Shown: one piece after another, positions 34,248 through 55,172 of the stretch
Layout of the letters: each line of letters starts with the position of its first letter
Numbering within the stretch: the first letter of the stretch is position 1
Source of the DNA: an uncultured Clostridia bacterium
GTDB taxonomy: Bacteria > Bacillota > Clostridia > Christensenellales > Pumilibacteraceae
Assembly (NCBI GenBank): GCA_947175195.1
Contig: CAMWLQ010000004.1
Span: 62,001 to 126,000, forward strand
Direction: 5' to 3'
Length of the DNA stretch: 64,000 nt
Made by a program: the position numbers and the translations under genes
Notes under the pieces: model-generated
The model's database searches: none
What the model saw: only the letters and a program-made list of their open reading frames with translations
Told to the model about the DNA's origin: nothing

Positions 34248-35399
34248 CTAAAAGTTCTCGTATTCTTTCAACAGCTCGGCGGGTATACTTGGACGGAGCT
34301 TTTTGAACGCCGCGTCGAACATATCGCGCCGCAGCGGTATGGGCTTACTAAGTCCTTTTGCTTGCATTTCCTCCAATGCAAGGCGGCACGCCTCTTCTAT
34401 TATTCCGCAAAGGTCGGCTGCCGAATAGTACATAGTAGTCACCTTTACGTTGGTGTTTGGCACAGCCGTTTTGGTGTACGTTTCGCTTAGCTCAACCAAA
34501 TCCTCGGTGGTCACGCCGTCCAACGCTATGCCGCTGAGTTTGCCCTCGATGATGGCGCGCTTTGCCGTGATGTCGGGCGGCGGCACGTGCACGCGGTGCG
34601 AAAACCGCTTAAACCTGAGATACGCGGGATCGATAACGTCGGGACGGTTGGTCGCCGCTATTATTATGCGTTTGGAGCCGTCCACGCCAAAGCCGTTTAT
34701 GCGCTGCAACAGCTCGGTGGTGACGGCGGCTTTGTAGTCCTTGGTGTCCGAAGTGCGCTTGCTGAATATAGACTCGCACTCATCCACAAACAATATCGCG
34801 CCGTCGGCGCAGGCGTCCATTTCGTCAAACAGCTGGCGCACAGCCTGCTCGGACTCGCCCACGTACGACTTGAATATATCGGCGGGCGTTATTACAAACA
34901 GCGGCAACTGCAGCTTGTTGGCTATCGCCTCGGCAAACATGGTTTTGCCCGTTCCCGGCGCGCCGTACATAAGCATGCCCAAACCGCCCTCTATCTTGTA
35001 ATACTTGATAACGTCGGGATTTTGCGCAATAAAGATAAAGCTTTCCACCAGCTTTTTTACGTCGTCCAAGCCCTTGACGTCGGCAAACGTAGTTTTGGGT
35101 ATGGTGTGGCTGACCGACGAGCCGTATTCGGTCGCCTTCTTGCCCAGCTTTTTAGCCTTGTCGGCATACTCCTCCGCCTTGACTGCGTCGGTGTGCCGCT
35201 CGGACAGCTTTTGCGCGTACTGCGACGCACGCAAGTACTCGGTGCAAAGCCGCTGCTTGTCCTCAGTGCGCAGGTCGCGCTTATCCTTAACCCCGCCCAA
35301 AATAGTGCGGATATTTTCCACAGCCTCGCTGTAGTTTTTTTCCAACTGCTCGAGCGACGAGCCTTCCGCCGCCGTCGATTTCTTTCCGAATCCCGACAT
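34248..35399 (-). CDS. Vps4/SpoVK-like AAA+ ATPase with N-terminal helical (MIT-like) segment
   Basis: A 383-aa protein. Residues about 15-92 are a three-helix-like segment (YLRASQYAQKLSERHTDAVK, then KAKKLGKKATEY) resembling a MIT domain. A classic AAA module starts TFADVKGLDDVKKLVESFIF. Walker A is GAPGTGKT (146-153), Walker B ILFVDE (202-207), sensor 1 is IIAATNRPD, and Arg-finger candidates lie in RFKRF before HVPPP. The layout MIT-like + single AAA + C-terminal helices is that of Vps4. Last gene of the operon, 18 nt after the coiled-coil gene; GGAGGG precedes the ATG. Probable remodelling ATPase acting on a polymer or complex. Confidence 0.82.
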   Translation of the reverse strand: MSGFGKKSTAAEGSSLEQLEKNYSEAVENIRTILGGVKDKRDLRTEDKQRLCTEYLRASQYAQKLSERHTDAVKAEEYADKAKKLGKKATEYGSSVSHTIPKTTFADVKGLDDVKKLVESFIFIAQNPDVIKYYKIEGGLGMLMYGAPGTGKTMFAEAIANKLQLPLFVITPADIFKSYVGESEQAVRQLFDEMDACADGAILFVDECESIFSKRTSDTKDYKAAVTTELLQRINGFGVDGSKRIIIAATNRPDVIDPAYLRFKRFSHRVHVPPPDITAKRAIIEGKLSGIALDGVTTEDLVELSETYTKTAVPNTNVKVTTMYYSAADLCGIIEEACRLALEEMQAKGLSKPIPLRRDMFDAAFKKLRPSIPAELLKEYENF

Positions 35400-35417
35400 T
35401 TAGTCTTTCCCTCCACT

Positions 35418-36188
35418 TTAAAGAATATCGCTTATATCGTCGGCATTTCCCGCACTGCCGCCCGCGGGCGCGGCCGTACCTACGTCACCGACACTGCCCG
35501 CACCGGCACCGTTGCCGCCGTCGCCGCCGCTGCGCTCGCTAATAATCTTGTCCACCATTTTTTCGGCATTGGTGGGCGGCAGCGGCGCGCCGCCGTTTGC
35601 CTTGACCTCGTACTTTTTGCGGCGCTCGGCGCTCTTTGCCAAACGCTTTTGCGTTTTGACGTTGGATTTTTGCAAGCCCTCGGTTATGGAGAACGCAAGG
35701 TCCTGACTGCTTTCCAGCATGTACATGATTTCCTTGATCCTGCCGAGGTTGTTGGTAATCGTCTTTTGCATACGCTTTTTAGCCTTGCGGCGCGCCCAAA
35801 ATCCGTGATTGACCCTTTGCGTGGAGTCAAGCGCCGAGGAATTGAGCTGCAAAATATTATCCATGCAAAGCATAGCGTCGGTAATGCACGACACCGCCAT
35901 GCTGACGTCGGTCAACAGGTCGATGGTGTCTTCCATTTGTATCGCCACGTCCAAAAACGTCAATAGCGTTTGCGACATAAAATAGTCCTTGCCGTACTTT
36001 TGAATCATATCGGCGGCGCGGGTGGCAAGCAGCTCCTTGCGCTTACCGAAATTCTTTTTGGAGCTTTCCAGCTTGCGCTCCTGCTCCGCGCGAACGTATT
36101 CGTTGTCCAGCTCATCCGCCTGCTTGCGTATGCGTGCGCGGCGCTCCTCGCTTTCGGACATCTCCTCTCTTTGCCGTTCTCTTGCCAT
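35418..36188 (-). CDS. Basic/acidic coiled-coil protein, possible ESCRT-III-like partner of the AAA ATPase
   Basis: A 256-aa protein starting at 36188 (AAGGAG upstream). A highly charged N-terminal helix (1-60) is followed by amphipathic helices (70-195) with segments such as AMLCMDNILQLNSSALD and basic RRKAKKRMQK, then a Gly/Ala-rich flexible linker and an acidic end, DDISDIL. The order basic helical hairpin, helices, flexible linker, acidic C-terminal motif is the general ESCRT-III plan. Its gene directly precedes a Vps4-like ATPase gene. Homology is not shown by sequence here; the comparison rests on architecture and context. Confidence 0.62.
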   Translation of the reverse strand: MARERQREEMSESEERRARIRKQADELDNEYVRAEQERKLESSKKNFGKRKELLATRAADMIQKYGKDYFMSQTLLTFLDVAIQMEDTIDLLTDVSMAVSCITDAMLCMDNILQLNSSALDSTQRVNHGFWARRKAKKRMQKTITNNLGRIKEIMYMLESSQDLAFSITEGLQKSNVKTQKRLAKSAERRKKYEVKANGGAPLPPTNAEKMVDKIISERSGGDGGNGAGAGSVGDVGTAAPAGGSAGNADDISDIL

Positions 36189-36213
36189 AATATAAAATCT
36201 CCTTGTGAGTTTT

Positions 36214-39200
36214 TTACTTTGTAACGTACTTTTGCACTGCGGCTTTAAGCGCCGCTTGTTCGGCTTGCGTGTTGTCAAAGTAGTCATGAATATGCACCTT
36301 GTGCAAAACCCAGCCCCTGCCCGACAGCGACGTCACGTACCGAGCGTTGTAGTCGAAAAAGTCGTAACGCTTTTGCACGGGCAATTCGCACCACACGCCT
36401 AGCTCGGCTTTGCTTAAATCCTTTGACAGCACCGCTATAGGTATGCGCACCGAGCCGTCCGTAACGCCGTAATCGGTTACAATACGTTCTTTTGCAATAC
36501 CCAAGCTCTCTATATAGCGTGCCACTGCGGAAATAAAGTGCTCGCCCTTTTCGGGTACTGCCGACACGAACTGACCGGAATTATCGGCAAACCGCTCCAC
36601 GCCCGCAAGATAGCTGCGAATAAACGCTATGCGGTCGTTGCCCGCCATTTGCCGCGACGTAAGCGTGTGAATGACGGTGACCTTATTCTTTGCGCGCGTG
36701 ACCGCCACGTTAAAAATATTCTTGCCCGTCGCGTCGCGGTTAAGCTCGCCGAACGCCAGCTTGACCTTGCCGTTTTTGTCCTTGCCGTACGTGAGCGAGA
36801 GAATAAGGTTGTCCGTTTCCTGACCCTGCACGCTCTCTATGGTGCGGAAAAACACCAGCTTGTCGGGCACGTCGTCAAAGTTGCGCCACGCCGTTTCTAT
36901 CATATCGTTGAGCTTTTTGTCGGCACGGACAAGGCTAAGCACGTACTTTAACTGCGCCTCGCCGAACGTGACCACGCCCACCGACGTGGACAAAACTCCG
37001 CGTTTTTTGTCGTAGTACTTGTCAAAATGCTCGTTGAGCGCGGCGAGGACCGCGTTTGCCTCGACGACGTTTACACCGTCCTCGCAACAGCCGTCGGCTG
37101 TGAGAATATCGGTAAAGCCGAGGTCGGGCGTCTTGGGCACCGTCGCGGGGAAGGTGCGCATATACGGGTAAAACTCGCGCTGCGAAAACTCGATAAGGCT
37201 TTCGGTCTTGCTGCGGTAGTGGCAAACAAGCTCCTCCGTGTCGAACGCGAGGTTGCCCAGCGCAAGACTGAGCGCCGATATATCGGTGTCCAGTGTAAGC
37301 TCTGTTGTTTCGTCGCTTATGCGCTTGCGGTTTTTCGTTTTAAAGTGCGTGAGCGGCGGCATTTGGAACTCGTCGCCCACCAGCACGCATTGCTTGCTAC
37401 GGAACAGCACGGGCAGCAAATCCACAGGCTCCATTTGGCTCGCCTCGTCCACTATTACCACGTCGAAGTTTTCGTAAGCCTCGCCGCGGAACAGCACGCT
37501 CGCCGTGGACGGCGACATTATAAAGCACTTTTTAAGCTTGAGTATAGCTTTTGCATACGTGCGGAACATTACCCGCAGCGACATGTTTATGCCCTTGTCC
37601 ACCGCCAAGAAATCAAAGTCGTCATCATCGGCGTCTATGCGCGCCATGCACAAGCTTTCGGTGCGCACGGCGTTGCACTCGTATATCTCGTTTTCCGCGT
37701 CGGTAAAATTCTTAATAGCAAGCTCGGCGGCTTTGCCCAGTCCGTTGCGGCGGTTGCCCAGCGTTGCGATCTTGCGGTCTATCACAAGCGCAAGGTACGA
37801 ATGAACGAACAAGTCCACAAACCGCTCGGTCGGCACGTCCACCCTGCCGTCCTCTATCGGCGCAAAAAACGCGTCGAGCAATGCGTTTTGCCTGCGCAAA
37901 ATATTGTCGTAGCTTAACGCCGCGCCCGCCGCCGACCTGTCCTTGGCTTGCGTTATCAATACCGCGCTATTTTTCGGCGTAACGCTCCACGGCGCTGCGG
38001 CATAGGCGTTTACAAAATACATAACGCCAAAGTCCTTCAGCTTTTTAACTACCGCCGCCACGTTTGACGCAAGCGCTGTTTCGCCCTGCAAAACAGTTAC
38101 AAATTTTTCCGTCATTTGCGCGTCGCAGTTAAACTGCGGGCAATGGTATATCCTAAGTAGCGCCGACAGCGACTGCGCCTTTAAAAGCGCATTATCGCCC
38201 ACGGCAATGCCGCACCTGCCGCACATTGCGAACAGCGCGGTATTCAGCTCGGACTGCGCTTGCATAAGCTCCACAGCCGATATAAAGCGATCTATTACGT
38301 AATCGTCGGGCGTTTTTACGTAGTCATTTGTTGCGGCTATAATTTCCGCTGCGGACTTGCACGCCGACACAAACTCGCGCATATCGACGCCGAATTTTTC
38401 GCTATGCTCGGCGACCGCGAGTATACATTCCGTTTGCTCTTTTGTAAGTGCGTTAAGTCCCACAACGTGCGCGAGCACGCCGCTAAGCCCGTTGATTTTG
38501 CCGTCACATTCGGCAATACGGTTGTAAGACAGCGCGGCTACCGCAAGCTCATTCAACGCAATATCGGTGCGCGAACACACGGCGCGGATTTTCTTTTCCG
38601 CTCCCTTCGCCTTGAAATCGAACAAGCCGATAGCGGGCTTATCGCCGCCCGCATACGGCGCTAACGCCGCGCACGCCTTGAGTAGCTGCCCGTCGTTAAG
38701 CTTAGCCTTGTCGAACACAAAAAGCACGTCGGCAGTTAGCGCATCGCGTTCCGATTTGAGCGCGTAAATATTTTTCACCGTTTCGGTAAACTTTGCCGCC
38801 GCTTTGTCCGTCATCTCGTCGCGCAAAAACAGCTCGGCATTATCGGCAACGTTGTTGACAACAGAAAGCTTGAGCCCGCGCACAGTCTTTACGTCCGACA
38901 CGTGCATAAAGCAGTCGGCTTTAACGCCGTCCGCAAATACGAATTTATCGGCATCAATCGCCACGGTCTTAGCGCGCTCGTACTTGTCCGCAAGCATTGT
39001 CAGCAGCTCGCCGTCGGTCTTTTTGAGCGTTGTAACAGCCTTTGCTATATCCCCGCCTTTAAGGGCGTTAGGCAGCGCCGCGTCATACAAATCGCCGTAA
39101 GTGCAGTCGCTCCACGGAATATCGCCGTGCGCTTTTTCAAGCCGTTCGATTACGGCGTTTATTCCAATCATATCGTCGGCAATTTCGCCGAGCGCGGATA

Positions 39201-40722
39201 AAGCACCGTCTATGTCCGTTTTGTCGGTTACGCCGTGCCACGGACTGAGCGCGACCTTTCCGTCACGCAATAGCCGCGCATAGTGTGCGGCGCACTCTTT
39301 GACACCAAGCAACAGCTTGTTGTAATCCTCGCGTGAAATTGCCGCCGCGCTGCCGCCGTCCGTAAACTCTATGACGGGCAGGTCGGCGTCCTTATAGTAC
39401 GTATCAAGCGCATCGTAATACGAGCCCCACGCGACGTCGCTGCCGAACACCTCGGCTTGATAGTCGCCAAGTGCTATCATAGCCTCCGCTTTGGCGCGAT
39501 CGGCGCGGCAGTATTTTAGGTCGTACTTTCCGTCGTAAACGTATTCCTTTTTGTTTTTGATAAGCCGCTTAAACTCGGCGCGCACCTCGGCGGGATTGAC
39601 CGCCGCGGCTTTTTGCTCGGTTTCGTAGTCGAGCAGCATTACAAACTTTCTAAGCCGCTCTGGCAGCTTTGCATACACCTCGGCAAGCGCGGAAAGCTTT
39701 TCGGATGCGACAAGCACGCTTTTGCCCTGCGCAAGCAACGTGGCAAGCATGTTGGCTATGGTCAGAGTTTTGCCCGTTCCGGGCGGACCCTTTATAATCA
39801 TAGACTTTCCTGCCGCTACCTTGCCGATAATATTATCCTGCACGCTGTCGGTGGGCAGTACGGGACGAGTAGTCACCTCGCACTCGTCCGTATCGGGCAA
39901 CGGCGCACCGCCGCCGAATACACGCCGTACAAGCGGATGCGCGTAAATCTTTTGCTTGTTGCGCCGCACGTCGTAGTACATGCAAATGTCGCTGTGGTTG
40001 TACTGCGCAATCGTAATTATATCTTTATCGAAGGACACGCTACCGCCGATAGCGGACACAAACTCGCTTACACGGTTCATATACTCCGTGCCGTCAGCCA
40101 GCTTGTCCAAATCGATAGCGTCGTCAAAGCTTTGTCCCGCGCCGTTGGGGTGCGGAAAATTAGAGGTAACGCTTTCCGCAAGCTCGTCCTGCATACGCGC
40201 AATAAGGCAGGGATTAAAATACGCGTCGTCGTCCACAAACTCTATTTCCACATTGCCGGTGTTTGTGCCGCGCACAAGCCGAATGGGAAAAATAAGTAAC
40301 GGCGAATTAACCGATTTTATCTCGTCGCCGTGCGCAACCGCCCACGACAGCAATCCCACGCCCAAAAACAGCGGGTTGTTGCCCTTTAAGTCGAGCGCGT
40401 TGTACGCGGCGGAAATAAACTTATCAAGTGCGGCGGCATTTTTGTTGCACGCAAGATCAGCCCAGTCCCACTGCTCGGTGAGCGTGCTGTTTACCGTCGC
40501 TTTTACAAGCGCGCTGCCGCTGAGCACGGTCTTGTTGGACGGCTTGCCACGGCGGGCGCGAATTACGTTAAGCATAGTGCGGCTGTTGTCGCCGCTTGCG
40601 CAAAACAGGCGGTACGCCTTGTCCGATCCGCCCTCGCCTATCACGCCCACGTCGAGCAGCCTGTTGCCGCGCACGTCGTCGGTGTGTAGTAATCCTTTGA
40701 TAAACTCGTCCAAAAATTCCAT
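36214..40722 (-). CDS. Giant SF1 (UPF1-like) helicase with DUF4011-like front and degenerate Vsr-like nuclease tail
   Basis: A 1502-aa protein. The N-terminal region (about 110-180, NPLFLGVGLLSWAV and SPLLIFPIRL) matches the DUF4011 type. Walker A is GPPGTGKT (312-319). A very long helical insertion follows, then DEASQ (Walker B), VLVGDEFQMPPL (motif III), ESVQGQETDNLI and NVAVTRAKNKV (motif VI). The last 110 residues follow the MTES_1575/Vsr-like endonuclease pattern (RIPIAV, LGVWCEL, GRGWVLHKVHIHDYFDN), but the expected catalytic Asp (RIDxAV) is Pro and the E-C-D triad is W-C-E, so cleavage is unlikely. Probably a nucleic-acid motor with a binding tail. Confidence 0.86.
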   Translation of the reverse strand: MEFLDEFIKGLLHTDDVRGNRLLDVGVIGEGGSDKAYRLFCASGDNSRTMLNVIRARRGKPSNKTVLSGSALVKATVNSTLTEQWDWADLACNKNAAALDKFISAAYNALDLKGNNPLFLGVGLLSWAVAHGDEIKSVNSPLLIFPIRLVRGTNTGNVEIEFVDDDAYFNPCLIARMQDELAESVTSNFPHPNGAGQSFDDAIDLDKLADGTEYMNRVSEFVSAIGGSVSFDKDIITIAQYNHSDICMYYDVRRNKQKIYAHPLVRRVFGGGAPLPDTDECEVTTRPVLPTDSVQDNIIGKVAAGKSMIIKGPPGTGKTLTIANMLATLLAQGKSVLVASEKLSALAEVYAKLPERLRKFVMLLDYETEQKAAAVNPAEVRAEFKRLIKNKKEYVYDGKYDLKYCRADRAKAEAMIALGDYQAEVFGSDVAWGSYYDALDTYYKDADLPVIEFTDGGSAAAISREDYNKLLLGVKECAAHYARLLRDGKVALSPWHGVTDKTDIDGALSALGEIADDMIGINAVIERLEKAHGDIPWSDCTYGDLYDAALPNALKGGDIAKAVTTLKKTDGELLTMLADKYERAKTVAIDADKFVFADGVKADCFMHVSDVKTVRGLKLSVVNNVADNAELFLRDEMTDKAAAKFTETVKNIYALKSERDALTADVLFVFDKAKLNDGQLLKACAALAPYAGGDKPAIGLFDFKAKGAEKKIRAVCSRTDIALNELAVAALSYNRIAECDGKINGLSGVLAHVVGLNALTKEQTECILAVAEHSEKFGVDMREFVSACKSAAEIIAATNDYVKTPDDYVIDRFISAVELMQAQSELNTALFAMCGRCGIAVGDNALLKAQSLSALLRIYHCPQFNCDAQMTEKFVTVLQGETALASNVAAVVKKLKDFGVMYFVNAYAAAPWSVTPKNSAVLITQAKDRSAAGAALSYDNILRRQNALLDAFFAPIEDGRVDVPTERFVDLFVHSYLALVIDRKIATLGNRRNGLGKAAELAIKNFTDAENEIYECNAVRTESLCMARIDADDDDFDFLAVDKGINMSLRVMFRTYAKAILKLKKCFIMSPSTASVLFRGEAYENFDVVIVDEASQMEPVDLLPVLFRSKQCVLVGDEFQMPPLTHFKTKNRKRISDETTELTLDTDISALSLALGNLAFDTEELVCHYRSKTESLIEFSQREFYPYMRTFPATVPKTPDLGFTDILTADGCCEDGVNVVEANAVLAALNEHFDKYYDKKRGVLSTSVGVVTFGEAQLKYVLSLVRADKKLNDMIETAWRNFDDVPDKLVFFRTIESVQGQETDNLILSLTYGKDKNGKVKLAFGELNRDATGKNIFNVAVTRAKNKVTVIHTLTSRQMAGNDRIAFIRSYLAGVERFADNSGQFVSAVPEKGEHFISAVARYIESLGIAKERIVTDYGVTDGSVRIPIAVLSKDLSKAELGVWCELPVQKRYDFFDYNARYVTSLSGRGWVLHKVHIHDYFDNTQAEQAALKAAVQKYVTK

Positions 40723-40747
40723 TCGTAGTACCTATATATCACAAATC

Positions 40748-42646
40748 TTACGTAAAGTCAATACCGTTCCAGTATTCGTCCAGTCCGCGCCGACAGTCGA
40801 TTTCAAACGCGTATGCGTCCGCCTCGTAAATATGCACCTTGTATACGTTTGAGCGCGTGTTGCGGTCGTACGCCTGTTCGAGCGTTTCCCGCCACTTACA
40901 CGACCTGCCGTAGGTTATGCCCATATGGTCGTAATACCACGGCGACCAGTTTCCGCCCATAAGCCGAGCCTGCAACGCGTGAAAGCTTTCGTGCACTATC
41001 GCGTCGCGCATCCACGAAACGTCCTGCGCCGAGGAGTACTTGAACACAATACGCTTGCCGCCGTCGTAGCACAACCCGCCCGCGCTGCCGTTTTCCATTT
41101 CGTCGGCGATTTCCACTATCGGGTCGATAGGTATGCCGAGCACGCGGTAAACCAGCTTGACCGCAAGCGCGGCGCGACCTTCCATATCACCGCGTTCCAG
41201 CCTGCTCCACACCGAGTAATCGTCCGTGCCCGTAGTGCAGTACCGCGCGAGCAAGCCGCACTTGCCGAACACCGTGGCATTGCTTTCCACTATCTTTTTT
41301 ACGTTGTTAATATCTATCGCGGGTATGCCGTCATAGTCGAATTCGCCCGCGCCGTTATCGGCACTGCCGCCGCCGCGAAAATCGCCCCAGCCGTCGTCTA
41401 TAAACAGCATTGCCGATTTGATACGCGACAAGTACCGCTTGGCGGCGTCAGCATTGCCAGCGGAAATCTTGCGCCCGCGCGTCATCCAGTTAGAATGGTG
41501 CTCGGGGCGCACAATCTCGTTAAGCCCCGCAAAGCCCAAAAACGGCATGTCGCGCAACGCCGCGCGCGCCGCAGTATCGTCCGCCATTTTGAGCGACGTA
41601 AGCTCGTCCACAGTCGCCTCGAACGCCGGCATAGTTATATAAGATTCGCTTATATCGAGCGCACTCAAGTCCTCATACTGCACCGCCGCGGTCAGTCCGT
41701 CGTCGTACAGCGCGCCGCCCTGCACGTCGGCAATAAACACGCGCGTACCCGCCTTGCCCGCCGCCATTGCCGCGCGCAAAAAGTACGTGCGGTTATCCTC
41801 GGGAATCATGTCGGTATTGGATACGAACAGCGCGCACTTTTTGTATTCGGCATAACAAAAAACCTTGTCTATGCCGTCGCGCGAGCCGCCGACCGAATTA
41901 ATATTGAACTCGTAAATTTCCATATCGCGCGGTATGGCGTTGGCTGCATACAGCCGCGCCTCGTCAGTAAACGGCGTGTTTAGTATAAGCGCGTTAGCCT
42001 TGCCACCCTCGTCACATTCGGGCGTGGGAAAGTAATCGCAGTCGCGTAAATTCAGTCGTTTTACCGCCACCGTGCGTTCAAGCGCTTTGGCGTACGCGCC
42101 GCAAATGCCCGCCTTCCAGCTTTCCAAGCTCTCCGCTATATCGCCCGACAACGTGGGGAAAACCACGCCGTCCTCAAACGGTGAGGTCATGCCCGCATTA
42201 AGCAATCCGTCTATAAGCTCGGTCGCGTTTTGTATTATCTTTTTGCCGTTTAGCGCAAGCGCGTTTTCGCTGCTCGCCTGCGCGGAAATTTCCTTTTTTG
42301 TGTCTATGTACCGCGCGAACAGCGTGACAAACTTTAGCGTGTTTTCCATTGCCGCGGCGCTCTTGTTGTAGCCCTTTTCTTTGGCTATCGGCAGGTTTTG
42401 CTCGACAAAGTTTTTCAGCTTGTCAACAAGATTGCCGTCAAAGTCGGGAGATAAACATTTGAGCCCGAAAATCTTGCATGCCAAACGCATGCGCAGCGCA
42501 TCGGCGTTTGCGCGGTTATTGTCGTTTAGCGCGGGTATTAGCAAAAGCTCCTCTATAGAGGCAAGCGCACTGTCCAGCGCCGTTATATCGGTCGAGTAAA
42601 TGTACTCGGTATTTGCGTCGGTAATTACCTGTTTAAAATTGATCAT
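40748..42646 (-). CDS. HExxH zincin-type protein
   Basis: A 632-aa protein. The N-terminal half is helical; a middle alpha/beta region (about 225-390) contains a vWA/Rossmann-like run (KCALFVSNTDMI, TRVFIADVQGG). The C-terminal part carries HESFHALQ (HExxH at 552-556) and a downstream YEADAYAFE (about 607-615), the spacing and flavour of a glutamate zincin. It is therefore a predicted metalloprotease, or a peptidase-fold protein. Start codon overlaps the stop of the coiled-coil gene by 4 nt (coupled). No signal peptide, so cytoplasmic. Confidence 0.68.
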   Translation of the reverse strand: MINFKQVITDANTEYIYSTDITALDSALASIEELLLIPALNDNNRANADALRMRLACKIFGLKCLSPDFDGNLVDKLKNFVEQNLPIAKEKGYNKSAAAMENTLKFVTLFARYIDTKKEISAQASSENALALNGKKIIQNATELIDGLLNAGMTSPFEDGVVFPTLSGDIAESLESWKAGICGAYAKALERTVAVKRLNLRDCDYFPTPECDEGGKANALILNTPFTDEARLYAANAIPRDMEIYEFNINSVGGSRDGIDKVFCYAEYKKCALFVSNTDMIPEDNRTYFLRAAMAAGKAGTRVFIADVQGGALYDDGLTAAVQYEDLSALDISESYITMPAFEATVDELTSLKMADDTAARAALRDMPFLGFAGLNEIVRPEHHSNWMTRGRKISAGNADAAKRYLSRIKSAMLFIDDGWGDFRGGGSADNGAGEFDYDGIPAIDINNVKKIVESNATVFGKCGLLARYCTTGTDDYSVWSRLERGDMEGRAALAVKLVYRVLGIPIDPIVEIADEMENGSAGGLCYDGGKRIVFKYSSAQDVSWMRDAIVHESFHALQARLMGGNWSPWYYDHMGITYGRSCKWRETLEQAYDRNTRSNVYKVHIYEADAYAFEIDCRRGLDEYWNGIDFT

Positions 42647-44169: not shown

Positions 44170-44179
44170 TGGGTAACTC

Positions 44180-45280
44180 CTATTGTTTTGCTACTTTATT
44201 TATAAGGTCCTCTGTTGCATGCGCGAACGACTCCAGCCGCGATTTGTACATAAGCACGTCGTCCTCGCTGAACACAAAGTCCGTTTGGACCGCCGCGCCG
44301 CTCATAGCGTCGATTATTCTTTTTATGCCGGTGTACTCGCCCAAGCCGCTGTTTTGGCGCAAGGTCTTGGCAATGCGACGGCACTTGCTTTCCGATATGC
44401 CGTGCGAGCCGCCGCCGTTGAAAAAGTACAAATAGTAGGCGCTGTCGGGCTCGATGGCGTTTACGTCCTCCTCCGTCTTGATAGTACGGAATTCGCCGTT
44501 GTCCGCGTCAAATAATACTATAAGCATTTTTCGCGCAAAAGTCAATAGTTTGCTGTCACTATGCTTGCCGTTTGCGCGAATTGCGCTGAGCTCGACGTAC
44601 TCGCCCCTGCCCAAACGCATAATGCCGAACAGCGGCGCACGCTCCTTGTTAAAGCATGTTTGCAATACCGACAGCACGTGCAGGGCGCGGCTTTCGCCCA
44701 CAACGCGTTCCGCGCCGTCGTCGTCGGGTATGGTCAAGCCCAAAGCAATAATCTTTTCCCGCTCGTCGTGATAGTTGAGCTCGCCCACGTGCCTAAAGCT
44801 TTCGGGCAGCTTTTTGAGCAGCTCCAAATAATGCTTAGCCGCGGCGGAGCGCAGCTTGATGCAGCTTTCGGCGTAGTCGCGGTCGGCGGGGCGCTCTTCC
44901 ATTTCGGGCATTGTGCTCCACACCAGCTTGTAGTACTCGTAGGCTATGCGAAAGCTCTCCGTAATATCGGCGGAAATATAACCGTGCTCGTAATAAAACC
45001 CCAGCCGAATAAGCGCCTTTGGATTGCCCATGCGCGCCGCCGTGCGGCAGTACTCTATTGCCATACCGAGCTCACGCTCGTAAAGAGCCGCGTCCTTTTG
45101 GCTTTTGAGCGCGCGCAAATAGCACAGCTCGGACAGCTTGAACGTTTCGTCGTTTTCCTTGTTGACCTTGACGGCGATAGACTTTATGCTGACCACCGCC
45201 TTGCACGACGGGCACGCCCAGTCGCCGTTGTACAGCTCGAGAGGCTTTACTATATTCTTGTTGCAATTACTACAAATCAT
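44180..45280 (-). CDS. Zinc-ribbon protein with Sel1/TPR-like repeats
   Basis: A 366-aa protein. A zinc ribbon is at the N-terminus (CSNC at 3-6 and CPSC at 23-26). A helical repeat region follows (about 50-170), with AIEYCRTAARMGNPKALIRL and FYYEHGYI of the Sel1-like type. The second half (about 195-366) is alpha/beta and unrecognised. Start preceded by GGAGG. Likely an adaptor recognising a nucleic acid or protein partner in the operon's complex. Confidence 0.68.
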   Translation of the reverse strand: MICSNCNKNIVKPLELYNGDWACPSCKAVVSIKSIAVKVNKENDETFKLSELCYLRALKSQKDAALYERELGMAIEYCRTAARMGNPKALIRLGFYYEHGYISADITESFRIAYEYYKLVWSTMPEMEERPADRDYAESCIKLRSAAAKHYLELLKKLPESFRHVGELNYHDEREKIIALGLTIPDDDGAERVVGESRALHVLSVLQTCFNKERAPLFGIMRLGRGEYVELSAIRANGKHSDSKLLTFARKMLIVLFDADNGEFRTIKTEEDVNAIEPDSAYYLYFFNGGGSHGISESKCRRIAKTLRQNSGLGEYTGIKRIIDAMSGAAVQTDFVFSEDDVLMYKSRLESFAHATEDLINKVAKQ

Positions 45281-45283
45281 ATT

Positions 45284-48200: not shown

Positions 48201-48535
48201 GCCTCCACGGTGTCGGCAAGTATGGCGGGGTTACTGCTGCCAAATTCGGCAAGCCAAATAATTACAAATACTATTGTGACTATTATATATACTATAAACA
48301 ACGTTAGCGTATACTTGAACCGCTGATTGGACAGCGCCACGCCCGCCAAGTACAGCAGGTCCGCAACCGTCATTGCAAACGGCAAAAACCAGTACGCACT
48401 TGACGCGCCGAATACCCACAACGCTATGCACGCGGCAAAATCGGCTACCGACATTAGCGCCAAGCCTATAATCAACCATATTTTATGTTTGCCCGAAAGC
48501 ATTTCCGTGACGGGCGAATGTGAAACGTTTTTCAT
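45284..48535 (-). CDS. Five-TM protein with leucine-rich-like region and extracellular MBG/Ig repeats
   Basis: A 1083-aa protein. Five TM helices occupy about 18-165. Next comes a BspA/LRR_5-like unit (IPYEFNGRKVTAVSANIF...IKSVTL, about 208-235) and a mixed region. The tail (about 590-1083) is a string of MBG/Ig-like repeats marked by recurring YNGxxQxPTA (ELTYNGEVQAPTA, VVRYNGQAQLPTA, ALTYNGSEQTPTA) and a final YGQTPDYTYTVDGL module. The long repeat tail is probably outside the cell. It is odd to find a surface protein between nucleic-acid-handling genes, yet spacing on both sides is only 3 and 10 nt. Confidence 0.78.
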   Translation of the reverse strand: MKNVSHSPVTEMLSGKHKIWLIIGLALMSVADFAACIALWVFGASSAYWFLPFAMTVADLLYLAGVALSNQRFKYTLTLFIVYIIVTIVFVIIWLAEFGSSNPAILADTVEAAWGMLHVFGILAVAISYLYASRRLRLMRHVQLVFAIGLSAVVLLALVLFYGITIISDGYFGQGNDTIPLVYTYVGDNECMVTDIVYGKGDKVVIPYEFNGRKVTAVSANIFSYANIKSVTLNCDSDVALCEDLNSVRSLNTKIIIYADKKDVDTIKYNLYGEQENIIYTTLKHELGNRVRPIGLDKDEVYVTFDYDRDSYLYAQGEIIPTWYGKKGDKFVLSDFDDVDYVEYSDVNSDEDLYYCYNNIKINGGNGQIMCELQDGGKALDGMTITKSCDNVPVRFQRIYKVLAGVSNDNMYNTADWFNFATINGIKRDFKLTVADKADELLEPFDRGEAFTRHMHYSAFNTPQYREFTSLSELLSEGYSEVAIAPHWELVKPQITLSAVDGSTDFVYGDDFELTATVTHPLGDVQIEYEWYDETQRISYDQVLKENASDVGMHTYTAIVKVSAPEVTLRTSGNAAEIKVNVNKRPLTVTWEHKSIGSLGDDTQSYGTESVFDGKQRVIQPTAHNAVNNDSIYFMGATVLDAGTHTERATLSSYIAEKYYIAEGETYTYTIYPRPVPLTWGEQTEFEYDGNSHSPSAQAFDLWDSELDIRYIGTQIDAGENYTVTAEIVNTNYTIDESSEKSKGFKITPKQVSVTWGNTELTYNGEVQAPTATAVGVNNANVNLNITGGQINVNMIDGNKTATYTATATSANKNYTLDPTTASKEFTIAPYVLTGIGWSNSVVRYNGQAQLPTAMVTGAKDKNVPLTVIIEDFPEGAINAGNYTATATVADPNYTIYDGPLFPIYDDITSELTAAQWPFIILSMEVRVEWSNTALTYNGSEQTPTATAKGVNGEDLPLTVSGGRRDVGTGTATAAFATEQQNYTLTNTTVRFTVQQRVLTISVNDVTIEYGQTPDYTYTVDGLISGDNVTVTFSLNVLTVDGNIPVGKHIINVTLSGSDNGNYKLNVVRNGTLTVTAPTQTEE

Positions 48536-48545
48536 TAATGTACCC

Positions 48546-50186
48546 TCACTTTACCTTTTTGGGCGGATCGATATAGCCGAAATCATGCGCGTCCAGCTTG
48601 TTGAACACGTATCTCTCCTCGCCCAGCTCGAAAATTATAATATTGCTGTCTTCCTTACAAAACTTTTTGTCCTTTAGGTGCTTGAGCCTTACGCGCAGCG
48701 CGAGCATTTTGCTGTACTTGCGGTACAGCTTTTTGCCCTCTTCGGTATACGCAAAATCGCCGCACAGCCTGCAATACCCGTTTTTGCCGGTATGCTCGCC
48801 GTACGTCCTGCCGCAGCACTTGCACTTTTTAACCTTGCCGTCGGTAAGCACAAACGCTTGCTCGTCCAGGTTGAGCGTGGACGTGAGCTTGCCACCGTCC
48901 ACACCGCTCGAAAATATATTGGTATAAACAACCTCGGGATAAGGACAGCCCTTGCACTTGCGTTCCACATTGCCGTCCGCGTCCGTGAATTCCACCGATT
49001 GATTAAAACAAATGAGCCGCGTGCAATCGCTGTTTCGCATATTCTCCTTGCACGAAATTTTGAACAAGTGCCGCGAAATCAACGCCGAGCTTTTTATCAA
49101 ATTGATTGCCTCGTTGCCCAGTCCGAGATTGCGCTCGGCAAAATCCAAAACGTACCCGCCGTCATATTCGTCTTGATCGAACAGTACGTTGTTGTTTTCC
49201 ACCAGCAGTACGCCGTCCTTGCTGCAATTTGTGCAGTACAGGCTTATGCTGTTGTTAAGCCCCACTATCAGCTTGAGCACGTTTTGCCCACCCACGCTGA
49301 CCGCATAGGCAAAGTTTTGCCATTCCACGTGCGAAATGCCCAGCACGGTAACGTGCGTACATTCCAGCTCCTTTTCGTCGCTGGTGGCAAGCAGCTTTAG
49401 CATTTTTTCTATCTTGGGCAAATAGTCGGGGTTGAACATTATGTAATCGGCGCACCCCTCGTCCTCGAAAAGACTGCCCGCGCGGTTGAGTACGTCGCTG
49501 ACCAGTTGACCGTCCACCAGCTCGCCCGCGCCGCTTTGCCCGTCGTCGGACGGCACCGCCGATTTAATGTAATCGTCTATGCCCTTTGCCTCGCCGCGGC
49601 TGACGGGTATGAACTTGCCGTCACGCCCGACTCTAAAGTACACCTTGCCGAGCAACGGCTCCGATTCCGCGCCGCCGTTTATTTCCAAACGCATTGACAC
49701 CGCGTAAAAGTTTTCCGCCTCGGGCGTGTAGCGCTCGGACACCGAAAACGGCGCGTCGATCACGCGCTTTAAAAAGCCGTCCGAAAATCTTTTGATAACA
49801 GCCTCTACAGCGCCGCTGCCGGCAGCAAGCCGACTGTCGACGGGCTGACGGAATTCTATAAGCGAGTAGTATTTGTGGTAGTCCGCGCCGACGTCCGCAA
49901 TGAGCTGTTCCCAGTCCGAGCTGCTGCTGTCAAAGCTTTTGCCGCGCAGGTTGGCAAACCAGCTCGCACCGTCCTTGTCGAACCTGAGCTCGTTTTCCTC
50001 GCCGCCCCTTGCGCCGTTTACGCCGTGCTCGTCTTGGCAGTACACAAACACATTAGCCGCCGTTACTATTTCCGTATCGGTGACGCGCTTTATATTTACC
50101 TTGTCGGACAAAAATCCGTTTTTGTATAGACTGCAAATGCTTTTGAATTCCTTTTCGTATTCGCAGCCGACGTTAATTCTTGCCAT
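48546..50186 (-). CDS. Zn-cluster protein of unknown family
   Basis: A 546-aa protein. An unrecognised alpha/beta front (1-300) leads into cysteine clusters CTNC (about 319-322), CKGCPYPE (about 407-414) and a paired knuckle CKCCGRTYGEHTGKNGYCRLCGD (about 456-478). These resemble the Cys clusters in the tail of the neighbouring helicase. SD AAGGAG is 6 nt before the ATG, 3 nt after the helicase stop. Likely a partner of that helicase. Confidence 0.66.
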   Translation of the reverse strand: MARINVGCEYEKEFKSICSLYKNGFLSDKVNIKRVTDTEIVTAANVFVYCQDEHGVNGARGGEENELRFDKDGASWFANLRGKSFDSSSSDWEQLIADVGADYHKYYSLIEFRQPVDSRLAAGSGAVEAVIKRFSDGFLKRVIDAPFSVSERYTPEAENFYAVSMRLEINGGAESEPLLGKVYFRVGRDGKFIPVSRGEAKGIDDYIKSAVPSDDGQSGAGELVDGQLVSDVLNRAGSLFEDEGCADYIMFNPDYLPKIEKMLKLLATSDEKELECTHVTVLGISHVEWQNFAYAVSVGGQNVLKLIVGLNNSISLYCTNCSKDGVLLVENNNVLFDQDEYDGGYVLDFAERNLGLGNEAINLIKSSALISRHLFKISCKENMRNSDCTRLICFNQSVEFTDADGNVERKCKGCPYPEVVYTNIFSSGVDGGKLTSTLNLDEQAFVLTDGKVKKCKCCGRTYGEHTGKNGYCRLCGDFAYTEEGKKLYRKYSKMLALRVRLKHLKDKKFCKEDSNIIIFELGEERYVFNKLDAHDFGYIDPPKKVK

Positions 50187-50189
50187 GGT

Positions 50190-53081
50190 CTACTCCTTTT
50201 CGCTCTCGCCGTCGCGTTCGAGAATACGGCGGACGTCGGTGACGATTTCCGCCTGCTCGCCGAGGTTTTGGCAAAAGCCTTCGCCGCCGTCATGGTCGAA
50301 CTTCCACAGCTCGGATATGAAGGTGGCAAACGTGCGCGCAACAACGGGGCGCAGCTTGCCGTGGTTACGGCGCGACGAACAGCTTGGCATGGGACAGTCC
50401 GCCTCCCACTTGTCGTTAAACTCCAAAGCATACGGCTTGGGGCTGCAGCCTGCGTAATCGCAGTCGGAGCACCGTCCGCCCTCGCCCGCCTCGCCGACGA
50501 TTTGCTCTTTGGGCAGTCCCGCAATCTTGCATTTGTCCCAGCAGTCGCTGTTGTCGCACATTGCGCAAATGCGCATGAGCTCGACGTCCGATATGTTGCT
50601 GACCTCTTTGTACCGTTTGAGCACGGGGCATTTTCCGTACATATGCCCGCCCTTGTTAAAGCGTTGGCAATGCGCTATGGCACAAATTTTGCGGCAGTAT
50701 ATGGACCTGTCGCCCTTTTCGCCCGAATTGCACATCCTGCCGCGCTCGCCGTTTTCCACACTGGAAAAACACATATATCCGTCCGACACCGAGCGCGTGA
50801 GCACCGTGCCGCAGTTGTCGCACTTAAAGTCGTATACAGTTATCTCGCACATCTCCGTGCCGTTGCCGTCGGCGTCTATGCACTGCGTTTCGGCGCGGCA
50901 TACGAGCGCGCCCGGTTTTTTGCGCTTTTCGTCGTAAGCCTCTTTGGACATCAATACTACCCTGCCGCACGCGTTGCAGCGCAGCGCGACCATTTGGTCG
51001 GAGTTGCTGCCCGCAAGTATGGTGGCGTCGCCCGTGTTGCCCGAAAGCAAGCCTATCTCGGCAAAGTACGCAAGCGCAAAGCCTTCCAGCTTGCTCATAT
51101 CCGCAAGCGAATACACTATTACGTCGTTCTTTTGCCCAAGCCTGAATATACGCCCTATGCGCTGGTCCATTGCCAGCGGGTCGTAGGTTACTTGATAATT
51201 TATTATTATGCTCGATTCCTGAAGGTTTGCGCCCTCGGTGTACTTGGCGTCCTTTACTATGAGTATGGCATTACCGCGCTTTGCCGAATTGAACTCGCGC
51301 TCTACCGCGTGCACGTCGGCTGCCTCGTCGCCCACTATTATCCTGTCTTTAAGCTCGGGATCGCGCATGAGCGCGGCGCACACCTCGTCGTATATGCGTT
51401 CGCCTTTTCCGAGGTTGTAATCGAAGAACACCAGCACGCGTTTGTCCTTGTGCTGCTTGAGTATGCGCACAGCCGTTTCGTACTTGTAGTCGGTAATGCT
51501 GTCGCTCAGCTGTACGGGCACAAAGTACGACTGCTTGGCAACGCTGCCGTGCGTGTTGCGCAGGCGGTCGGCGTAGTACGTGATATAACCGTTTTTGGTG
51601 TGTATGGCTTTGGTTTGCGGATCGCCTTCCGCCAGCCTGCCCAGTATGCTGTTTATTACGTGCGCATACGCCTGCTCCACCGAAAGATTGCCGCGCAAGT
51701 TCTTTACGTAGTCTATTAGCGACAGCTCCTCCGAGCCGACATGCACGATGGGCATGCCCGCCTCTTTCGAGCGCGAAAAGTCTACCGTTATCTTTTTTTC
51801 GTTAAGCCCCGTTATCTTGACCGTTTCGGGCACGCGCGACATCGGATAGAAAAAGTAATTGTGTACCGATTTGGTTTTGGATAGACGGTTGGGCTGGCGT
51901 ATCATAATGGAGCGCAGCACGCCGTTGTGGTACGCGTCCGATATGCGCTTTAGCACGTCGTCCTTTATCGCCTTGTTGCCCTCGGCGTTCAAAAAGTCGT
52001 CTATGTACTGCGCACGGTCGTACTGCGATTTGGCGTTAAAGTCGTCCGCCCTGCCTATTTTGAATAGGTACGAACGCAGCTCGTCAAAGTACTTTTGCAT
52101 TACCACCGAATATTTTACTCGGCGGATAAAATCGGTAATATTGGTCGCGCCGTAGCACACAGTGTCCTTGTAGTACTGCTTTTCCTCCAAGTACTGCGCC
52201 GTGCGGTCGGCGTCGTCCTTTTCGTCAAAGTCGGACGGATTGCCGCCCTTGCACCGCACAAAGTACCACAGGCGGAACATGTTTTCGAGATTGCCAGAGT
52301 GCGGCGTTGCGGTAAGCAACAAGCAGTACGTTGCGCCCGCGCGCTTTTTGGTTTGCATCATCTCCGACAGCATGCGCATTGCGCCCGCGTACTTGCCCGC
52401 GTCCTCGCTAAAGTGATGCGCCTCGTCAACAACGACGACGTCCACCAAAAAGTCGGGGCTGTACCGCCACTGCGCAAATATGTCTACGTCAACTATTATG
52501 GGGCGTTTGGGACGGATAAACTTGCCCTGCTTACTCACGCCCACCTTGGATAATACGTCCTGCAGCGTGGGGTACTCGCCGTCCGTTTTTTGCACCTTGT
52601 ACAACACGTCCTTACCCATACCGAACTTGTTTTCCAGTACGTCCACCCAGCTGTTAAGCACTTGGTCGGGCGTGATGACGATGAGCGATTTCATTTTGCC
52701 GCGCACGGCAAGCTCGCTCAATATTACGCCCGCCTCAAACGTTTTGCCGCTGCCCACGACGTCGGCAAGCAAGCCGAATCCGCGCAGGTCGCGCAAAAAC
52801 TTCTCCGCCGCCGCCTGCTGGTGCGAAAGTATAACGCTGCCGCCCTCGCCGTGAATATCCCTGTCCGCGCCAATGCCGTACTCGACCTTGCCGTTACGTT
52901 TTTTGTAGTGAGAACAGTCAATCAAAAGCTCGTGAAAATCGTCGTGGCTGTCCAACGCCTCCACGCTTTGCTGCGCCTCCGCAACCTGACGGGTAAACTT
53001 CTTTTTGTATTGCAGGTTGCTGCGCTGTACGTCGGCTGAAAACGCCGTGTCCGTAAATGTAAGCTTGTAGTTATCTTTCAT
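50190..53081 (-). CDS. SNF2/RapA-type SF2 helicase with Cys-rich C-terminal tail
   Basis: A 963-aa protein from the ATG at 53081, which has AAGGAG 11 nt upstream; a GTG at 53105 would overlap the previous gene. Motif I is DVVGSGKT, motif II DEAHHF, motif III LLTATPHSGN, and motif VI is MDQRIGRIFRLGQ, the SNF2/RapA signature. From about residue 690 there are over 25 Cys in pairs (CNACG, CDNCG, CAMCD, CSDCDYAGC, CPMPSC), suggesting several structural Zn sites. Predicted dsDNA/RNA translocase. Second gene of the operon, after the Hsp70. Confidence 0.86.
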   Translation of the reverse strand: MKDNYKLTFTDTAFSADVQRSNLQYKKKFTRQVAEAQQSVEALDSHDDFHELLIDCSHYKKRNGKVEYGIGADRDIHGEGGSVILSHQQAAAEKFLRDLRGFGLLADVVGSGKTFEAGVILSELAVRGKMKSLIVITPDQVLNSWVDVLENKFGMGKDVLYKVQKTDGEYPTLQDVLSKVGVSKQGKFIRPKRPIIVDVDIFAQWRYSPDFLVDVVVVDEAHHFSEDAGKYAGAMRMLSEMMQTKKRAGATYCLLLTATPHSGNLENMFRLWYFVRCKGGNPSDFDEKDDADRTAQYLEEKQYYKDTVCYGATNITDFIRRVKYSVVMQKYFDELRSYLFKIGRADDFNAKSQYDRAQYIDDFLNAEGNKAIKDDVLKRISDAYHNGVLRSIMIRQPNRLSKTKSVHNYFFYPMSRVPETVKITGLNEKKITVDFSRSKEAGMPIVHVGSEELSLIDYVKNLRGNLSVEQAYAHVINSILGRLAEGDPQTKAIHTKNGYITYYADRLRNTHGSVAKQSYFVPVQLSDSITDYKYETAVRILKQHKDKRVLVFFDYNLGKGERIYDEVCAALMRDPELKDRIIVGDEAADVHAVEREFNSAKRGNAILIVKDAKYTEGANLQESSIIINYQVTYDPLAMDQRIGRIFRLGQKNDVIVYSLADMSKLEGFALAYFAEIGLLSGNTGDATILAGSNSDQMVALRCNACGRVVLMSKEAYDEKRKKPGALVCRAETQCIDADGNGTEMCEITVYDFKCDNCGTVLTRSVSDGYMCFSSVENGERGRMCNSGEKGDRSIYCRKICAIAHCQRFNKGGHMYGKCPVLKRYKEVSNISDVELMRICAMCDNSDCWDKCKIAGLPKEQIVGEAGEGGRCSDCDYAGCSPKPYALEFNDKWEADCPMPSCSSRRNHGKLRPVVARTFATFISELWKFDHDGGEGFCQNLGEQAEIVTDVRRILERDGESEKE

Positions 53082-53101
53082 ACCGTTCCTGTCTCCTTCC
53101 C

Positions 53102-55093
53102 TCACGTCAACTGCGTTTCGATATTGAACGAGAATTCTATATCGCGTTTAAGCACAGTTTCCCTTTCGCCGTAGCCGCGGCTGTCCAAGTACTCTATAAC
53201 CGTGAATTCCGAGCCGTTGCGCTTTTTGTCGTTGCGGGCGTACGCCTTGGCGTAGCCGTCGCCGTCGATTTCCACGCCCAGCTTTAAGTATACCTCTTTG
53301 ATTATGCGCACGCGCCTGCCGTTGTAGTAGTACTTAGCACGGCTGCCGTTATTCATATTGTCTATACTGCCGTTGAGTACGCGCAAGCCAATTTCCCTTT
53401 GCAGCTTGTTAAGCATCGTCTTGTTGTCGGTGTCCACCACCAACAGGTTTTCACCGCCCGATCTCGAATACGTTATAAGCGGCGCTTTGCGCGAATGTTC
53501 TATGTCCTGCGCCGAGTAGAACGTGCTCATTATGTGCATTGCCGCCGACTGCTCGGAATTGTCGCCGGTAGTTATGCCGCCCTTGTCGCCGTCCTTTGGC
53601 GTGTAGTACGTTGCACCGTTTTGCGGCAAGCGCGTGCCCTTGTTGACCAGCACGCGAAAAAACGGTATAACGTTGTTGCCGTTGCCCACGACGCGGAAAA
53701 GCCGCACGCCGTAGGTCAGCGCAAGCACCATGTCGATTACCATACCGCACATGGACGCCACCGCGCAGCCAAGCGCAGGCGCGTACAGCGCGTCCTCGTG
53801 GCTCATAATGTTAAACCCGTCGTTCTTGACGCCTACGTATTCGCTGTCGTCCTTTTCGAATGTGTATACCTTTACGCCCAGCGGCTCGATAAACCTGCGG
53901 ATATATTTCATAAGTCCGTATGTTTCCACCGGTCCGCCGGTGATGAAAATCTTTTTTATATCGGTGTTTATCGGACGAATCAGCTCGTCGGTTATGTAGT
54001 TGACTATCTTGCGCGCTACGCCGTTGTTGTCCGTAATGCCAACGCACTTTTCAAACTGTTCGCGCGTTATATTGCGCTGTATAAGCAAGTCCCGCGACGC
54101 GGAAATGGGCACGCCGTAACGGAAGGCGCGACTGTCGTAAATGGGCATGCCGAGCACTATCTTTGCCGACTTGATGTCCTTTACAAACAGGTATTGCTTG
54201 GTGTTGAGCGCCGACTCGGCAATGTGCCCTTCCTGCCCGCTGGACGGTCTGCCCATGGTTTCCCGTCCCGACATTTGTCCTTCTATGTACCGCGCGATTG
54301 CGTCGTCGATGTCCTTGCCGCCTATGGGCGCGGGCTCGTTGTGTCCGTCCACGCCGTCCACCGATACGCCCGTTCCCGAAAACGTGACCTTGACGAGCGA
54401 AATGCGCTCCTCGCCTATATTGAATATTATCGACTTGTCGTTCTTAGCCATTCGTCCCGAATACTTGGCGTATGCGCACAGCGCCTTTGCCATGCTCATT
54501 ACCGATTTAGGCTGAGTGCCGAACGCGTGCGTTACAAGCCGTTTAAGCTCGTTTACGTACTCTCCGTCCGAAAACGCGGGATACACAATGCTCGGCGTTA
54601 TTTCGGGCGCTTTGCCCAACAATAATTGCAACCGACCGACCACAATGCCGTGCACGTATTCGAAAAACAGCTCGCACACCTCAGACGGGGTTTGCGGCGC
54701 GGTAAACGTTCTGTCCTTAAGCACCGCCGCGTCCAAATCGTCGGTAAGCACGTCGCGCTGCGGAAAGTAGAATTTGGGGAATCGCGTCTTTTTAAAGTAG
54801 TAATTACGGTTACTCTTTTGCGTCGTCGCGTTTGCCGCGGGCTGCAACAGCCTGAGCAAATCGCAAATTTTGACAACGGTAATAAACGGCTTGTCGCCGA
54901 CCGAATTCACCTCGTCGCCGAATAGCCATTTACTTTCCTCAACGTCGTAGTACGCCACCGACGGCACGGCGGTCATAGTCAGCGGGTCGCCCACTATCTT
55001 GCCCGTGTGATCGTTTCCGTCGTTGTACGCGTACGCGATTTTGATTGTGTCGCTGCCGAGATCGAGAGCTATGTGTACCGATTGTTTTGCCAT
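53102..55093 (-). CDS. Hsp70-like (actin-fold) ATPase
   Basis: A 663-aa protein with the actin/Hsp70 fold. Phosphate 1 loop is IALDLGSDTIKIAYA, phosphate 2 is IIFNIGEERISLVKV (the usual D-x-G-x-G is N-I-G-E-E, so degenerate), and the adenosine loop is KKIFITGGPVETYGLMKYI. The C-terminal region (about 470-663) begins GVRLFRVVGNGNNVIPFF, like the DnaK substrate-binding beta domain. It is not DnaK: length, poor phosphate 2 loop and inserted loops differ, and no grpE/dnaJ is adjacent. First gene of the operon, under a perfect promoter. Confidence 0.84.
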   Translation of the reverse strand: MAKQSVHIALDLGSDTIKIAYAYNDGNDHTGKIVGDPLTMTAVPSVAYYDVEESKWLFGDEVNSVGDKPFITVVKICDLLRLLQPAANATTQKSNRNYYFKKTRFPKFYFPQRDVLTDDLDAAVLKDRTFTAPQTPSEVCELFFEYVHGIVVGRLQLLLGKAPEITPSIVYPAFSDGEYVNELKRLVTHAFGTQPKSVMSMAKALCAYAKYSGRMAKNDKSIIFNIGEERISLVKVTFSGTGVSVDGVDGHNEPAPIGGKDIDDAIARYIEGQMSGRETMGRPSSGQEGHIAESALNTKQYLFVKDIKSAKIVLGMPIYDSRAFRYGVPISASRDLLIQRNITREQFEKCVGITDNNGVARKIVNYITDELIRPINTDIKKIFITGGPVETYGLMKYIRRFIEPLGVKVYTFEKDDSEYVGVKNDGFNIMSHEDALYAPALGCAVASMCGMVIDMVLALTYGVRLFRVVGNGNNVIPFFRVLVNKGTRLPQNGATYYTPKDGDKGGITTGDNSEQSAAMHIMSTFYSAQDIEHSRKAPLITYSRSGGENLLVVDTDNKTMLNKLQREIGLRVLNGSIDNMNNGSRAKYYYNGRRVRIIKEVYLKLGVEIDGDGYAKAYARNDKKRNGSEFTVIEYLDSRGYGERETVLKRDIEFSFNIETQLT

Positions 55094-55143
55094 TGCCGCT
55101 TTTTAGTTCCCTTGTTGTTAGACTATATAATTCGTCTACTTAA

Positions 55144-55172
55144 ATTATATCACCGTAATACTCTTATGTCAA
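55144..55172 (-). promoter_or_regulatory. Perfect consensus promoter of the ten-gene operon
   Basis: TTGACA (55167-55172), exactly 17 nt, TATAAT (55144-55149). The +1 would be near 55137, giving a leader of about 44 nt to the ATG at 55093. Such a strong promoter argues for constitutive transcription unless a repressor acts. Confidence 0.85.

Follow-up and report, generated by a model that had tools for sequence, protein, structure and literature searches.

A block of ten genes on the minus strand of a 64-kb stretch of DNA from an uncultured Clostridia bacterium (contig CAMWLQ010000004.1, positions 62,001 to 126,000; hereafter the window) forms one conserved unit. The ten open reading frames (ORFs), g1 to g10, span window positions 34248-55093 and encode ATPases and helicases together with membrane-associated, Cys-rich, peptidase-like and coiled coil proteins. 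The block is real, occurs in certain gut clostridia and in a small number of related bacteria, and is apparently undescribed. Our preferred explanation, held tentatively, is that this transferred accessory locus builds a single membrane-anchored, ATP-driven machine, most likely directed against incoming DNA.

Conservation and modular organization

All of the co-directional, tightly spaced genes described in the original prediction for this DNA are present as ORFs, separated by gaps of 3-25 nt or overlapping by 4 nt (at g1/g2 and g6/g7). A search with g7, covering 61 genomes, gave matches in 12, the window's own genome included. Ten of the other eleven loci were inspected (G008, a 3.7-kb piece, was left out), and nine of them hold all ten genes in identical order; the tenth, in G005, ends within g8 at a contig end. 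In G026, which belongs to a different genus, and G041, of a different family, identity to the window ranges from about 23% to 67%, depending on the gene.

A g2 profile search of the named genome collection returned 73 loci, of which 72 have g1 and/or g3 adjoining g2; a 77-residue match in Dyella was dropped, leaving 72. The hosts are mostly uncultured Clostridia or similar bacteria, with some Christensenellaceae, two Candidatus Borkfalkia and five Bacilli. Gene order was tallied over all stretches after removal of identical copies, with close relatives counted apart and with profiles to which some of these loci had contributed. In this tally the expected next gene follows g1 in 71 of 73 cases, g2 in 71 of 72, g3 in 70 of 70, g4 in 56 of 57, g5 in 50 of 55, g7 in 33 of 35 (the other two being tandem copies of g7), g8 in 25 of 28 and g9 in 42 of 43, and 447 of the 470 intergenic gaps are no longer than 60 nt. 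A g10 match at E 1e-40 is found in 24 of 25 genomes picked through g2. Co-occurrence of at least six of the ten genes, the threshold set beforehand, is well exceeded, and the order is kept nearly everywhere; the figures, such as those for g1 and g2, are not those of genes that occur independently with no conserved order.

The gene that follows g6 is g7 in 29 of 49 cases and g9 in 17. The g7-g8 pair is missing between g6 and g9 in L094, L096, L097, L099, L102-L107, L111, L146 and L150, in the Bacilli loci L120 and L127 (in L120 a g8-like gene does lie upstream of g1), and in L082, a locus that shares 83% identity with the window in g2. On a g2 tree (52 rows, scored by hand) the pair has undergone at least four changes. 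Thus, g7-g8, encoding the zincin and the superfamily 1 (SF1) helicase, is a removable plug-in cassette, and the core of the operon consists of eight genes.

Distribution, insertion site and transfer

Within the family, g2 is present in 14 of 74 genomes and was not found in the other 60. Across the order g1 is present in 22 of 297 genomes (the matches in G241 and G152 are weak), while g2 is present in 2 of the 391 genomes sampled from the class (G038 and that of the window) and in 1 of the 398 sampled from the phylum, again that of the window. In the genus, g2 occurs in ten of 20 members, and G008 has only a piece of g7.

In the window the operon lies between two flanking genes, which we call Wf (55303-55686) and We (33264-34025). 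The same placement is seen in G013, G004, G009, G011 and G007, and one side of it is visible in G005. In five relatives (G002, G016, G006, G010 and G014) pgk, Wf, We and Wd are contiguous and the operon is absent. The site holds other genes in G017 (L178:4539-8047) and G001 (L179:6891-10244), which may make it a hotspot for insertions in general; in G007 it holds, besides the operon, a type IV restriction gene, GmrSD, placed between g10 and We (L026:10379-12238). G015 and G018 have no operon at this site and carry a distant version elsewhere in the genome. G003, G008, G012 and G019 are left out of this comparison. The clean insertion site and the many family genomes without g2 mean that the set is not a known housekeeping assembly found in all relatives, a possibility that the original prediction had raised.

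A g2 tree that keeps the genus as one clade is rejected (delta lnL 174, p-AU 1.4e-115), and in a midpoint-rooted tree the Bacilli rows appear to nest inside the Clostridia rows. To judge from these sequence comparisons, the locus is accessory and is horizontally transferred as a unit between species.

ATPases and helicases

The SNF2, DUF4011/SF1, AAA and MBG assignments pass Pfam cut-offs, which upholds the helicase, AAA ATPase and membrane-repeat labels first given to these proteins. The label of g1 (53102-55093, 663 residues) as an Hsp70 stands in part. Its LDLGSD-type motif, which we take to be an ASKHA-type (Hsp70/actin-like) ATPase motif, occurs in its strict form in 57 of 70 sequences, and its profile weakly matches Hsp70 chains in the PDB (best E 0.019); it has neither a Pfam match, and so is not Pfam HSP70, nor a PADLOC match.

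The second gene, g2 (50190-53105, 971 residues, GTG start), encodes an SNF2-family helicase with a Cys-rich carboxy terminus (Pfam SNF2, 3.4e-8). The nearest solved structure is RapA (3.3e-26, profile against PDB), and among defence models it matches BrxHI (3.1e-31) and DrmD (8.2e-29). Walker A is conserved in 71 of 71 sequences and DEAH in 69 of 71. The second helicase, g8 (36214-40722), is an SF1 protein by Pfam (DUF4011, AAA_11/12), PADLOC and NCBIfam; it lies near PDC-S37 (2.3e-111), ProA and Hhe, and its Walker A and motif II are kept in 22 of 22 sequences. It ends in a weak REase_MTES_1575 domain (Pfam 0.0016, below the cut-off).

The last gene, g10 (34248-35399), encodes a Vps4/CdvC-like AAA ATPase (Pfam AAA, 1.2e-33) with a helical amino-terminal region. 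Vps4_C scores 0.003, below its cut-off, and the best NCBIfam match is CdvC (1.2e-42; 146 of 650 bits, also below the cut-off). Walker A is intact in 41 of 42 sequences. An MIT domain is unsupported: there is none among the best 25 of 31 Pfam families or in the PDB profile table, where the best match is a 14-3-3 chain (E 0.0034). Across the loci, hardly any copy has lost the Walker motifs of g2, g8 and g10 or the HExxH motif of g7.

In G710, at a distance from the main locus, a second Vps4-like AAA gene adjoins an SNF2 helicase gene (L219, G710:C10, 617-5523), a pairing that agrees with the machine proposed below; a 1080-residue protein with no Pfam match is encoded near this pair.

Membrane, Cys-rich and peptidase proteins

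The amino-terminal part of g4 (45284-48535) has approximately five predicted transmembrane helices, and the protein matches MBG_3 (3.9e-6); relatives carry MBG_2, MBG_3 and Big_3 domains. The positive loops in the transmembrane prediction suggest that the repeat part lies outside the cell. Six comparisons were made within the genus. In five, g4 is the least conserved gene (45-68% identity, where g1 and g2 reach 79-92%); in the one with G007, g9 (42%), g6 (46%) and g7 (51%) all fall below g4 (58%). The protein thus joins a membrane region at its amino terminus to a long stretch of rapidly diverging Ig-like repeats. In three loci (L120:3106-3825, L127:7335-8051 and L149:5394-6221) g1 is immediately preceded by a gene for a Colicin_V (CvpA-like) membrane protein.

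Two proteins are notable for their cysteines. The alignment of g3 (48546-50186, 546 residues) has invariant Cys columns, and the protein has no match in Pfam, PADLOC or NCBIfam. The amino-terminal CxxC pairs of g5 (44180-45280) may form a zinc-ribbon-like region; they are followed by a Sel1-like region that scores 0.0097, below the Pfam cut-off.

The first gene of the cassette, g7 (40748-42646), has no Pfam match. Its HExxH motif is kept in 34 of 34 unique sequences, in agreement with its original zincin label, and 22 of the 34 also fit a strict pattern for the distal ligand; g7 is probably a gluzincin-like metallopeptidase. Tandem copies of the peptidase gene occur at L031:428-4255 (G041) and L217:11238-14714. 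Profiles of g3, g6, g7 and g9 searched against the PDB gave no nameable relative, the best E values being 0.0011 (g3, to a designed propeller), 0.013, 0.072 and 0.04.

Coiled coils and a shared carboxy-terminal motif

Two genes encode coiled coil proteins: g6 (42643-44169), which has an acidic tail, and g9 (35418-36188), a long-helix protein with a variable linker. The start of g9 is placed at 36188, and not at the start of the longer ORF, because relatives suggest this position. A DDISDIL-type motif ends 34 of 39 g9 proteins, 8 of 48 g6 proteins and 6 of 530 other ORFs. Hence g9, and in some lineages g6, bears a carboxy-terminal motif on a disordered-looking tail. Its recurrence on some g6 proteins suggests a shared docking tag, perhaps for the Vps4-like g10.

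Foldseek gave no match under 0.001 for either of two g9 models. The top match of the first model is Vipp1, and that of the second, built on a deeper alignment, is to eisosome/BAR proteins; in the VIA comparison ESCRT-III family members fill 15 of 50 rows for the first model and 5 of 50 for the second, all below helical noise. We therefore rejected the Vipp1 match as proof that g9 is an ESCRT-III protein, since the second model ranks eisosome/BAR proteins first and the VIA scores are within that noise.

In L149 the g6 relative is a 935-residue protein (262-3069) whose residues 4-480 match the g6 profile and whose residues 645-831 match the FtsK translocase; the fusion is near the SspH (1.6e-56) and mad8 models. 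This operon also has g9, g10, the Colicin_V-type gene, g1, an RNA ligase gene (8172-8792, between g1 and g2), g2, g3 and g4, in permuted order. The fusion suggests a link between g6 and DNA at the membrane.

Promoter and flanking elements

The perfect consensus promoter first noted upstream of g1 is confirmed: a sigma-A type TTGACA-17-TATAAT promoter on the minus strand (55144-55172) with 12 of 12 consensus bases and a spacer of 17. The six other genomes with the operon beside pgk also have a 12/12 promoter upstream of g1, with a changed spacer sequence. Elsewhere it scores 12/12 with a spacer of 16 in G015, and the best scores are 11 in G018, 9 in G026 and 8 in G041. The consensus promoter suggests that the operon is probably always on.

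The original prediction also placed a strong terminator upstream of the operon. A stem followed by T6 is indeed readable there on the minus strand (approximately 55236-55197), but the terminator scan did not list it and listed another minus-strand terminator at 55728-55697; with 4 terminators in the region against 3.1 in shuffles, the count is not above chance by that scan. The predicted repeat element at the end of the operon is present (34041-34247) and has one further copy in the window (57112-57291, beyond pgk; 86% over 180 nt), so that copies flank the operon region on both sides. The repeat has no Rfam family at gathering score.

A proposed membrane-anchored machine and its possible purpose

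In the machine that we envisage, which like the single sensing complex of the original prediction is an inference, g4 would face outward as a sensor or anchor, and the coiled coils g6 and g9 would form an assembly below it, on the membrane. The motif at the end of g9 or g6 would recruit the Vps4-like g10, which would pull on or rebuild the coiled coil assembly as Vps4 does with ESCRT-III. The Hsp70-like g1 may gate the assembly, and the SNF2 enzyme g2 would move on DNA brought to the membrane. Where the cassette is present, unwinding by g8 and cleavage of a target protein by g7 would form the effector step.

Of the parts of this explanation defence is the least certain, and on the sequences at hand we regard it as evenly balanced. 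It is favoured by the anti-phage relatives of three proteins (g8: ProA/Hhe/PDC-S37; g2: DrmD and BrxHI; g10: IetA), by transfer, by the cassette, by the consensus promoter, and by at least two loci that lie beside or near defence genes. These are the GmrSD gene in G007 and, in L109, an MmeI-type IIG restriction-modification gene with AbiH approximately 3-4 kb upstream of g1 (L109:1353-5195). Seven of the ten proteins have no convincing match in the PADLOC defence library.

Several observations weigh against defence. The neighbour scan took in 101 hand-picked proteins (88 of 217 candidates, plus 12, plus 1), used no control set, and leaves out many antisense-looking ORFs and ORFs cut by an end. 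In it the Pfam families are mainly housekeeping or metabolic (among the best 25 of 110 families), and the PADLOC matches are single ones (such as MmeI, GmrSD, the type II methylase MTase_II, MzaA and dGTPase, among the best 25 of 73 families); two mad3 matches may be only DnaK. Searches of g2 against phage, plasmid and viral-contig sequences gave only weak SNF2 matches, all below 60% identity, and with no close match there, phages or plasmids as the usual vehicle were rejected. In addition, 22 of 22 aligned g8 tails have Pro (as in RIPIAVL) at the position where the MTES-type family presumably has its catalytic Asp, so that the tail is probably not a nuclease. The nuclease tail ascribed to g8 at the outset looks degenerate, and an active g8 nuclease was dropped as effector. 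The likeness to conflict systems that the original prediction drew stands in part, for the relatives of g2, g8 and g10 in defence libraries and for the two loci near defence genes; in the surroundings of the operon at large, proximity to other defence genes looks exceptional.

The same components would also suit an accessory envelope machine, in which the surface Ig-repeat protein, the coiled coils and the Vps4-like ATPase remodel or repair a stressed membrane while the helicases act on host DNA or RNA. The topology and MBG repeats of g4, the CvpA-like gene beside g1 in L120, L127 and L149, the weak resemblance of g9 to ESCRT-III and BAR scaffolds and the housekeeping neighbours all agree with such a role, as do the bacterial Vps4-like ATPases beside membrane proteins described in PMC11237479. 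Such a role does not readily explain a pair of large helicases or the FtsK fusion, however, and conflict systems more typically show this kind of patchy, transferred and cassette-like content; we consider an envelope role rather unlikely, if a serious competitor. A machine that passes DNA or protein from cell to cell, in uptake, transfer or contact-dependent antagonism, and in which g4 makes the contact, could account for the variable repeat part of g4, the FtsK-type translocase fused to g6 in L149 and the DNA helicases. It is improbable, since the Pfam matches listed for the ten genes include no relaxase, pilus or secretion family, and no close match lies on plasmids or phages.

A housekeeping assembly missed in relatives, or a chance cluster, is very improbable even though several sites have housekeeping neighbours. 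The former is rejected by the operon-free contiguous sites in five genomes and the 60 of 74 family genomes in which g2 was not found, and the latter by the conservation of gene order across loci.

Within the preferred explanation of a transferred machine acting on incoming DNA, a more specific and more speculative version, which we think unlikely as it stands, is an ESCRT-like machine in a mobile immunity locus. Here the shared coiled coil tag would recruit a Vps4-type ATPase under a variable surface sensor, and the SNF2, FtsK or SF1 motors would turn membrane events such as phage DNA entry into ATP-driven action on DNA. In any case, the gene set is large, conserved and transferable, and neither the family libraries nor the literature searched showed its parts in combination. 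Should its role be defence, it would represent a defence system of a new kind. Should the Vps4 reading be true, bacteria would have an ESCRT-like pair of partners coupled to DNA motors, and a defined operon would be at hand in which to test which ATPase could serve bacterial ESCRT-III-like assemblies, a question raised in PMC8281802.

Comparison with known systems

As originally suspected, the full gene set is not a named system: the whole set has no match in PADLOC or NCBIfam, and none was found in the literature, most subscription journals and preprints lying outside the search. DISARM (DrmD) and BREX (BrxHI) each contain an SNF2-type helicase that falls, with g2, into one broad group. For DISARM, g2 scores 114.6 bits against a DrmD cut-off of 610, and no methyltransferase, DrmB or PglZ match is listed for the ten proteins (Pfam and PADLOC; best 25 of 46 for g2). 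For the BREX core of PglZ, BrxC and PglX, only the BrxH-type similarity of g2 is among the matches listed.

The ProA, Hhe and PDC-S37 helicases share with g8 a DUF4011-SF1 helicase and a carboxy-terminal MTES-type domain. They act as single large proteins, and g8, in which the nuclease residue looks lost, scores below the curated cut-offs for ProA (378 of 1500 bits) and Hhe (246 of 2000 bits). IetAS resembles the operon in pairing an AAA ATPase, from the broad family to which g10 also belongs, with a protease encoded in the same operon. However, g10 reaches 105.9 of the 510 bits required for IetA, and IetS is a subtilase, whereas the protease g7 is an optional HExxH peptidase and the Pfam scan of the ten proteins found no subtilase.

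Like the HSP70-GTPase conflict systems described in PMC7159879, the operon places an Hsp70-family protein among several NTPases; it differs in that the ten genes have no GTPase, tubulin or GrpE Pfam match and in that g1 falls outside Pfam HSP70. The bacterial Vps4-like ATPases with a TPR/6TM partner, as described in passages of PMC11237479, have other partner genes and another operon, and share with our locus a Vps4-like AAA ATPase and a membrane-proximal partner. Compared with the ESCRT-III/Vps4 (Cdv) system, the operon adds an Hsp70-like protein, SNF2 and SF1 helicases, a zincin and a membrane repeat protein, and an MIT domain in g10 and an ESCRT-III fold in g9 are not established. The two systems are nevertheless alike in that a CdvC/Vps4-type AAA ATPase with an intact Walker A adjoins a helical protein with a variable linker and a short carboxy-terminal motif.
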